Shown piece by piece: positions 26,088 through 58,590 of a stretch of DNA of 64,000 bases (its first letter is position 1; every line of letters starts with the position of its first letter). This DNA comes from Prevotella nigrescens (GTDB taxonomy: Bacteria > Bacteroidota > Bacteroidia > Bacteroidales > Bacteroidaceae). The position numbers and the translations under genes are program-made. Below the pieces are notes generated by a model. The model was not told the origin of the DNA. It ran no database searches and was given only the letters and a program-made list of their open reading frames with translations. The DNA lies in the NCBI RefSeq assembly GCF_031191185.1, contig NZ_CP133465.1, forward strand, positions 1,546,001-1,610,000. The letters are read 5' to 3'.

Positions 26088-26121
26088 AGGTCTGAACTTC
26101 CTGATGTGGAGGTTCAGACCT
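26088..26121. terminator. Strong inverted repeat, possible terminator
   Basis: AGGTCTGAACTTCC pairs with GGAGGTTCAGACCT with one mismatch and a 6-nt loop. No T-tract follows on either strand, so termination is uncertain. It sits beyond repeat array A, downstream of tag. Confidence 0.45.
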
Positions 26122-26144: not shown

Positions 26145-26296
26145 TTGTAAAGGTGTAAATATTTTTCACAAGCGTATCTATTGTGTAACTAACTGTACAT
26201 CAATGTATTGTAAAACCTATTGTTTTGCATTCCAAAAGCGGCTGTTTTGCACGGTAAAAGTGTAGGTTTTGCGTTGCAAAAGAGCCGCTTTCGCAA
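26145..26296 (+). repeat. 22-bp modular repeat array, copy A
   Basis: Four contiguous 22-bp units at 26209-26230, 26231-26252, 26253-26274 and 26275-26296. Each has an A-run, a 7-nt core and a T-run (AAAA-N7-TTTT). The cores in order are CCTATTG, GCGGCTG, GTGTAGG and GAGCCGC. The left flank (26145-26208) contains AGGTGTAAATAT and TAACTAACTGTA, shared with copy B. A degenerate fifth unit may follow. No coding capacity is evident. Confidence 0.8.
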
Positions 26297-26348
26297 CGTT
26301 AAAGCGCAGTTATCACTTTTTAAGAGAATTATCTTTACAAAATCAAAG

Positions 26349-39472: not shown

Positions 39473-39657
39473 TTATGATTCTTCCTTTATTGCTTTACTT
39501 ATAATTAGTAAGATTGAGTTTTCTATGTTTTTACAGATATTATTTACCAGCAATGAAAGTGTAGGATAATTCTTCTTTTTTTATACTTTAAGAGGGGAGA
39601 AAAAGTCCTTATTATGTAAAAGAAAACTCCTAAAAAAATGTAAGCCACACTCTCGTA

Positions 39658-39822
39658 ATTCAAAAGCGGCTGTTTTGTGCGGTAAAACAGCCGCTTTTAC
39701 CGTGTAAAAGAGCCACTTTTAAAGTACAAAACAATAGGTTTTGTAATATTTTGACATACAGTTAGTTAGACTAAAACCACGCCTGTAAAAAACATTTACA
39801 AACTTGAAGCGATATTTACACC
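39658..39822 (-). repeat. 22-bp modular repeat array, copy B
   Basis: Four exact 22-bp units at 39658-39679, 39680-39701, 39702-39723 and 39724-39745 (plus-strand cores GCGGCTG, CAGCCGC, GAGCCAC, CAATAGG). The flank 39746-39822 matches that of copy A when read on the minus strand (TAACTAACTGTA, AGGTGTAAATAT). The first two units form a perfect 15-bp inverted repeat with a 7-nt loop. The array lies in the only large gap inside the capsule operon. Confidence 0.8.
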
Positions 39823-58015: not shown

Positions 58016-58189
58016 CATATTTTATTTAATATTGGCAATAGACACTAATAGAATTTTATAGAGAGAGCAGCTTTACGGACATTCTATAAATTCTGTGCCT
58101 TCTCCTAATATGAGTCACTAAAACCATTAAACACCATCAGTGTAAACTATAGAAACGAGGGCACTGTAAATGATTAAAACTCGATTATG

Positions 58190-58275
58190 GTGCAAAAGTG
58201 CCTATTTTACAACGCAAATCCTACTCTTTTGGAATGCAAAACAATAGGTTTTGCAATATACTGACAGTAAGGATG
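58190..58275 (-). repeat. 22-bp modular repeat array, copy C
   Basis: Three exact 22-bp units at 58190-58211, 58212-58233 and 58234-58255 (plus-strand cores GTGCCTA, TCCTACT, CAATAGG). The flank 58256-58275 keeps part of the ACTGT..CA..TATT sequence shared with copies A and B on the minus strand. It lies upstream of the capsule promoter. Confidence 0.75.
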
Positions 58276-58590
58276 TTATCTAATATAGATATCCTTATGA
58301 AAAATGTTCATACCTCTATCCTTCTGTTTTCGGCGTATGAAGCAAGGAACGGAAGAGTGGGAGAGGAGTTTCTCTCTGTTCGGTAATGGATATTTCTTTG
58401 CTAAGTTCCCATTACTTTACATGAATGCAAGCGCTACCTTACCAGAAGCAGTAAAGCGAGTCTATATTATAGGCATGTTCTAAAAATTTCCACGTAAGCA
58501 TACCAGTACAGTAAAATCCGTCAAAAGTAAATTTAGAACCCACCTACAATAATGTGTATTTTGTGCGATAAGAACGTAGTTTCAGACTAC
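58276..58590. other. Intergenic stretch without recognisable gene
   Basis: A+T-rich spacer between repeat array C and the malic enzyme stop. Short ORFs show no family features. A weak GTAGT/ACTAC inverted repeat near 58577-58591 may be the end of the malic enzyme transcript. Confidence 0.5.

Follow-up and report, generated by a model that had tools for sequence, protein, structure and literature searches.

The closest described counterpart of the array analysed here is PINSR, an intergenic, non-coding repeat of 188 bp. Passages of Naito et al. (2015, PMC4755523) give 177 and 184 copies in two P. intermedia strains, place one copy downstream of tnaA in P. intermedia ATCC 25611, and report the repeat from P. 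intermedia, P. nigrescens, P. falsenii and P. disiens. The same passages describe PINSR as free of terminal inverted repeats and distinct from a MITE, mention small doubtful CDSs that overlap it, and leave its function and source open. BrickBuilt of P. gingivalis is also intergenic and consists of a leader, contiguous short tandem units and a tail, with predicted long stem-loops; as excerpted from PMC4596501, its units are 23-nt direct repeats in up to 22.8 copies, its ends are IS5-type terminal repeats (GAGACC...), and an alternating A4/T4 scaffold is not mentioned. REP/BIME repeats with their RAYT transposases (PMC2817692) are high-copy intergenic palindromes that form mosaics of alternating orientation and have species-specific sequences. 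Template switching is able to create and repair hairpin stems, and in template-switch (quasipalindrome) mutation a single event can turn one arm of a hairpin into the complement of the other (PMC8794818; see also PMC7202029 and PMC8604942). Finally, an extract of PMC8040213 lists 250 palindromic structured RNA candidates from human microbiomes, two of them Prevotella-exclusive in one data set; the likeness of the present arrays to these candidates is one of description only.

We analysed a stretch of 64,000 nucleotides of P. nigrescens (the window), the genome to which it belongs (the window genome, G000) and further genomes of the genus. The window contains three copies (A, B and C) of an intergenic repeat of ~188 bp, each composed of a leader, about four contiguous 22-bp units (A4-N7-T4-N7) and a tail. 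The variable 7-nt word between the A-run and the T-run is termed the core. Judged by its description (length, place, species), the window array is very probably one copy of PINSR, and thus of a known family, where the initial annotation had called the family undescribed. This identity is supported by the length of ~190 bp, the intergenic position, the 89 loci in 1.25 Mb, an array downstream of tnaA in the sister genome G084, and the presence of copies in P. falsenii and P. disiens. In G084, which is 97% alike at the window element, the tnaA array lies ~300 bp downstream of the gene; no A4N7T4 match was found in the 1.4 kb downstream of tnaA in the window genome or at the tnaA locus of G163. 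In a pattern scan of named genomes, hits were obtained in P. falsenii, P. aurantiaca, P. pallens and P. disiens, while no P. intermedia or P. nigrescens record was listed, in a scan from which records near the window genome were possibly omitted. P. aurantiaca and P. pallens are absent from the four positive species named in the PINSR passages of PMC4755523. Those passages make no mention of 22-bp units, complementary cores or core replacement, and searches of the accessible text of open-licence papers returned no description of the 22-bp grammar and the name PINSR in one paper. Thus, the repeat family is already known, and what is new is its resolved anatomy, the wider distribution of its grammar and the idea of how its cores evolve. 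The possibility that the copies are decayed pieces of one known mobile element, which had been raised for this locus, holds in so far as they are copies of a known repeat; the authors of the PINSR report, in the passages cited, keep that repeat apart from a MITE.

Table 1. Positions of the three repeat copies and their parts in the window
Feature	Position	Strand	Basis and remarks
Copy A, whole element	26153-26342	+	190 bp; seed alignment and profile
Copy A, leader, 59 bp, with TGTAAATATTTTTC box	26153..26211	+	seed alignment, sequence
Copy A, unit 1, core CCTATTG; own small predicted hairpin 26209-26229	26212..26233	+	pattern, folding
Copy A, unit 2, core GCGGCTG; 5' arm of predicted main hairpin 26235-26291	26234..26255	+	pattern, folding
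Copy A, unit 3, core GTGTAGG; apical loop of predicted main hairpin	26256..26277	+	
Copy A, unit 4, core GAGCCGC, ends TTTC; 3' arm of predicted main hairpin	26278..26292	+	
Copy A, tail, terminates in ATTATCTTTACAAAA (inverted TGTAAA box)	26293..26342	+	seed alignment, sequence
Copy B, whole element	39624..39798	-	nhmmer profile, 118.2 bits; array 39662-39742
Copy B, units	39662, 39684, 39706, 39728	-	pattern
Copy C, leader and three-unit array 58194-58252, more decayed	58188..58308	-	nhmmer profile, 72.5 bits

The initial annotation was right that three window loci hold units of exactly 22 bp and that the repeat is modular: a leader is followed by a first unit that is commonly fixed and by later ones that vary. 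It had placed the feature at 26209..26296, where the array does lie, but the conserved element reaches beyond this span on both sides (Table 1). By sequence, the unit plan is A4-N7-T4-R-N5-Y with an exact spacing of 22 bp, and the R and Y spacer positions are near-invariant in the window genome (232/234 and 231/234 spacers). The framing of every unit by an A-run and a T-run, also part of that annotation, needs correcting: the last unit often ends in TTTC rather than TTTT, and the middle unit of copy C is degenerate. A seed alignment of 16 window-genome copies, picked by eye for a recognisable leader, resolved the element into a leader of ~59 bp, four units of 22 bp that span 81 bp up to the last T-run, and a tail of ~50 bp. 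The leader and tail of its consensus carry an imperfect inverted box (TGTAAATATTTTTC / TGTAAAGATAATTC, 11/14 letters); the inverted TGTAAA boxes lie inside the conserved element, whose edges fade gradually outside them in 43 aligned G084 copies. The junction of leader and array in copy A bears an IHF-like motif, CATCAATGTATTG, for which the family consensus is TATCAACGCATTG. We take the former to be one letter off the IHF consensus and the latter to fit it, which would make this a putative IHF site. The leader-junction motif TTATCARYGNRTTRC was found near 17/41 arrays of other species (at least 12/15 letters) versus 2.6 in random windows, an excess that is possibly overstated because the random windows were mostly coding. 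A near-perfect inverted repeat, AGGTCTGAAC...GTTCAGACCT, with no clear T-run, occupies 26088-26121, in the gap that separates the copy A leader from the next gene; it is also present at the same site in G084 (L111).

A search of the genome for further arrays, which the initial annotation had proposed as a check, found many. A profile built on the 16 seed copies detected 89 loci in the 1.25 Mb sampled of the 2.68-Mb window genome, 45 in 400 kb of chromosome C1 and 44 in 850 kb of chromosome C2, counts that are not unbiased densities because the C2 sample was partly chosen near hits; some other genomes have hundreds of matches to the spacing grammar. When the same 1.25 Mb was scanned for A4-Na-T4-Nb-A4-Na-T4, each of a and b ranging from 4 to 10, the (7,7) cell alone was enriched: it had 89 matches, and no other cell exceeded 5. 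For five further genomes, the sampled sequence gave 5, 10, 5, 1 and 5 matches at 7/7 and at most 1 in the remaining cells. The sample with a single 7/7 match, G053, also had one match in another cell; the whole G053 genome had 56 grammar matches versus 0 off-phase. The 7/7 spacing is therefore prominent in five of six genome samples, with GC contents of 39-57%.

Within the genus, the exact pattern A4N7T4RN5YA4N7T4 was present in 63 of 200 genomes (window genome included). At least 10 matches were found in 24 of these; the highest counts were 481, 360, 240, 126 and 125, and many others were 1-3. An off-phase control with identical fixed letters occurred in 9/200 genomes, once each. This control was used within the genus since the reversed pattern (129 vs 109) also fits longer arrays and is uninformative there. 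At the level of the order, in a sample with just three genomes from the same family outside the genus and with the reversed pattern as control, 41/295 genomes (window genome included) had a match. Counts were otherwise mostly 1-2, apart from 7, 7 and 11 in three genomes in which the reversed control was also raised (26, 26 and 5) and the matches listed are AT-rich. Grammar counts outside the genus look like background. Exact matches numbered 481 in G084 and 126 in the window genome, although the elements at the window site are 97% alike, and the arrays of the window genome look more decayed or diversified than those of G084.

Arrays lie between genes. A first round of gene calling had placed 34/89 elements inside small ORFs, which were taken as spurious, and this caller was replaced by a simple codon model. 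With the latter, which is crude (74-86% coding), 0/177 arrays in seven genomes were inside a called gene (window genome 0/88; 3 at sample edges). The neighbouring genes were convergent, co-directed and divergent in 55, 86 and 33 cases, compared with 31.1, 101.6 and 41.3 expected (seven genomes, 3 edge cases), and 65 of the 86 co-directed cases were nearer the 3' end of the upstream gene. The convergent excess came from the window genome (30 vs 16.0), G084 (19 vs 10.3) and G012 (5 vs 1.3); in the five genomes besides the window genome and G084, divergent cases numbered 14 versus 8.8 expected. The orientation of the array had no preference (26 same vs 22 opposite), and a strand-specific RNA was rejected for lack of such a bias. 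A known RNA family was also rejected, since an Rfam scan of the window gave 0 matches over the gathering threshold.

Each species has its own set of cores. We counted cores in full four-unit elements of at least 80 bits, which dropped 3/48 elements in G084, 16/73 in P. falsenii and 39/89 in the window genome. According to the initial annotation, the unit nearest the conserved flank always has the core CCTATTG. This is true of 3/3 window copies and of 43/45 elements in G084, but of only 20/50 genome-wide in the window genome; the 53/57 found in P. falsenii are biased because these loci were fetched with a CCTATTG pattern. In G084, units 2 and 3 mostly carry GCGGCTG or GCGGCTC and GCGTAGG, in either order, and unit 4 mostly carries the complement of the unit 2 or unit 3 core. 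Likewise in copy A, the unit 4 core is complementary to the unit 2 core in 6/7 letters. A complementary pair (at least 6/7) was present in 39/45 elements of G084, 49/57 of P. falsenii and 29/50 of the window genome. In the window genome, 110 strand-independent words were found among 320 cores, the commonest 52 times. Its two chromosomes seem to differ in palette: CAGGCTC/GAGCCTG makes up 38/155 cores on C1 and 14/165 on C2, while CCTATTG/CAATAGG occurs 4 times on C1 and 19 times on C2, where stretches were partly picked near CCTATTG hits.

The association between cores was compared with a null distribution in which cores were shuffled by position (3/89 loci were dropped for too few units). In the window genome, 46/86 arrays had a reverse-complement core pair, versus a shuffled mean of 19.7 and a maximum of 37 in 1000 shuffles. 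Direct core similarity was not enriched overall (18 vs 17.6 shuffled); on C1 alone it was mildly raised (14 arrays vs 10.3, reached by 100/1000 shuffles; mean best direct score 4.93 vs 4.55, reached by 19/1000). Exact complements exceeded the shuffles in the window genome (15/50 vs 4.6, reached by 0/2000) and in P. falsenii (38/57 vs 26.0, 1/2000), but not significantly in G084 (21/45 vs 18.7, 521/2000), because its few words are nearly fixed by position. When only distinct combinations were counted, the window genome was the only significant case (14/48 vs 3.9), whereas P. falsenii (11/27 vs 9.3) and G084 (8/20 vs 7.2) were not significant. Much of the core complementarity is therefore inherited, given the position-fixed words of G084 and the flat distinct-combination test in P. 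falsenii. In five other genomes, complements reached significance in the pool only (29/41 vs 21.7, 6/1000 shuffles), with no genome clear singly; their pooled direct similarity was 27 vs 23.8 (138/1000). Some arrays elsewhere are direct and not inverted (L213, L216).

Next, we compared cores at orthologous sites. Among 34 candidate pairs, 20 had a single flank match and 7 were aligned. The core order of copy A is kept at the window site in G084 and P. aurantiaca, both of which have GCGTAGG in unit 3 where copy A has GTGTAGG. The clean case, in which both flanks align, is G084 105284 versus P. falsenii L177. Here the unit 4 core is GAGCCGC in the former and CCTACGG in the latter, differing in 5/7 letters, while the 10 letters before and the 15 after it are identical; unit 3 is GCGTAGG versus CCGTAGG, and the CCTACGG of L177 is the exact complement of its own unit 3. 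At a further site, G084 121058 versus L068 of the window genome, the difference in unit 3 extends to the preceding spacer and the A/T runs. P. falsenii L170, L187 and L162 have a different unit 4 partner from the window genome, each with one good flank. The suggestion of the initial annotation that such an array gains or exchanges cores is thus borne out for some exchange, at one clean site and three weaker ones. Core-only replacement is apparent at that one clean orthologous site, and ectopic gene conversion would also produce such changes.

The predicted fold of copy A, at -39.1 kcal/mol, has a separate hairpin for unit 1 and pairs units 2 and 4 around unit 3; its z is -4.13, and that of the minus strand is -2.77. 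For copies B and C, z in the leader direction was -4.44 and -3.11. In six genomes, mean folding z on the better strand ranged from -3.5 to -6.9 against dinucleotide shuffles, and arrays thus fold better than shuffles; the initial annotation had suggested a structured RNA, and as regards a structured hairpin it was right. Swapping cores between arrays had a modest cost in foldability (mean z -0.3 to -0.9), and the scaffold thus accounts for much of the folding. Curvature z under a wedge model averaged +2.3 to +3.0 in the six genomes, values inflated by the disruption of A-runs in dinucleotide shuffles. Within copy A, CCTA of the unit 1 core (26216-26222) is complementary to TAGG of the unit 3 core (26260-26266); loop-to-loop pairing between these two cores is possible in the present order and is lost if the middle words are swapped.

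In our judgement, the window array is best explained overall as a PINSR copy that is a BIME-like mosaic hairpin repeat: template switching during replication would keep its arms complementary, on an A/T scaffold to which an IHF/HU-like protein may bind. We put the chance of this explanation at about one half. The array would fold in RNA or in the single-stranded DNA of the replication fork, with unit 1 as a small hairpin and unit 2 or 3 paired with unit 4 as a large one. The A4 and T4 runs would act as common anchors where a stalled polymerase switches template, and the switch would rewrite one core as the complement of another core in the same array. Whereas template-switch mutation is a single event, here it is proposed to act repeatedly, within a multi-unit array and with a choice of partner. 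The phasing of A-tracts at 11 bp would curve the DNA and, taken with the IHF-like site where the leader meets the array, it suggests an IHF/HU-type nucleoid protein as a possible binder. In E. coli, there are IHF-binding forms of REP/BIME repeats. The most likely role overall is that of a BIME/REP-like element, either selfish or chromosome-structuring, which is tolerated in the space between genes, rather than a gene-specific regulator. REP/BIME repeats differ from the present arrays, which have a fixed 22-bp unit with variable 7-nt cores; a RAYT/REP system was rejected because the Y1-type REP-associated transposase (Y1_Tnp, PF01797) was found in 0/1 window genome, while 5/14 control genomes were positive. 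A broader generalization, put forward tentatively as a less probable extension, is that such arrays rewrite themselves across the genus: a scaffold with one A-tract per turn would carry interchangeable 7-nt words as species dialects, and foldability would be kept by copying one word as the complement of another, with partner choice.

Other mechanisms could account for parts of these observations. The arrays might act on the neighbouring genes as intrinsic terminators in both directions or as stabilisers of mRNA 3' ends, as would fit the convergent excess (55 vs 31.1), the 65/86 co-directed arrays nearer the upstream 3' end and the strong predicted hairpins with A-runs and T-runs. In the window genome, a canonical terminator, defined as a GC-rich hairpin with at least 5 T in the following 7 nt, was present in 19/92 array regions (110 nt), and 12% of 256 array-less gene ends had one within 250 nt. 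However, arrays do not replace ordinary terminators, which precede the array in 8/92 gene ends of the window genome versus 8.0 in controls and in 14/55 gene ends of G084 versus 8.2 in matched controls, and a canonical terminator occurs in only 2/55 array regions of G084 compared with 20% of its array-less gene ends within 250 nt. The lack of orientation preference, the confinement of the convergent excess to three genomes, with divergent cases if anything raised in the five besides the window genome and G084, and an exact 22-bp spacing for which a terminator has no need make this reading rather improbable; the regulated terminator proposed by the initial annotation is likewise not favoured by the terminator counts. 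A somewhat better candidate, though still an unlikely one, is a helically phased site array in which each turn presents one A-tract to a nucleoid or segregation protein, the cores being spacers and their complementarity secondary. The prominent 7/7 spacing, the near-invariant R/Y positions, the predicted curvature and the junction motif resembling the IHF consensus are all consistent with it, and protein binding, as the initial annotation had proposed, is possibly part of the picture. On its own, however, phased binding leaves unexplained why cores are reverse complements with no overall enrichment of direct repeats.

Mobility raises a further alternative of much the same low probability, namely that a transposase acting in trans moves the repeat as a MITE, as with BrickBuilt, and that the array is a passenger minisatellite. 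The imperfect inverted leader/tail box would suit such an element, and of 8 G084 copies with both flanks mapped to the window genome, 6 were scored as copy present and 2 as absent, with two more inspected window-genome sites lacking a copy. Against this, the box is internal to a conserved element with gradually fading edges, three aligned sites between G084 and the window genome revealed no clean empty site or target duplication, the window genome has no Y1 transposase (the search was confined to the Y1 type), and terminal inverted repeats are denied to PINSR in the passages of PMC4755523. Membership of BrickBuilt itself was discarded, as the period is 22 and not 23 and the consensus ends differ from the GAGACC type. 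Acquisition of units from outside, as in CRISPR-like spacer arrays, would account for a leader, a commonly fixed first unit and variable cores. It is nonetheless extremely improbable, since the core vocabulary is small and repeated, the cores are often mutual complements, and core order is kept at the window site in three genomes; we discarded it on these grounds.

Should template switching on the A/T scaffold be at work, the up to hundreds of copies per genome would offer a natural test bed for the birth and upkeep of hairpins, and the same arrays would allow a test of whether helically phased A-tracts are read by a nucleoid protein in Bacteroidota. With this grammar, PINSR becomes one dialect of a class that occurs in many genomes of the genus, where before it was a 188-bp repeat of a single species group. 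A simple means of annotating these repeats, and of flagging the small doubtful CDSs reported to overlap them, is provided by the exact 22-bp rule.

The window also contains, at 33244-57690 on the minus strand, a long run of ORFs, mostly of 215-439 aa. From the order and size of these ORFs, we presume a resemblance to a surface polysaccharide locus. Elsewhere in the genus, arrays at L132, L121 and L218 (in the last, the match near position 1500) were seen by eye to adjoin a second tandem repeat, which is palindromic and built on CTAGCCCCTAG or CCAGGGGCTGGA; in L132 its period is 22 letters.
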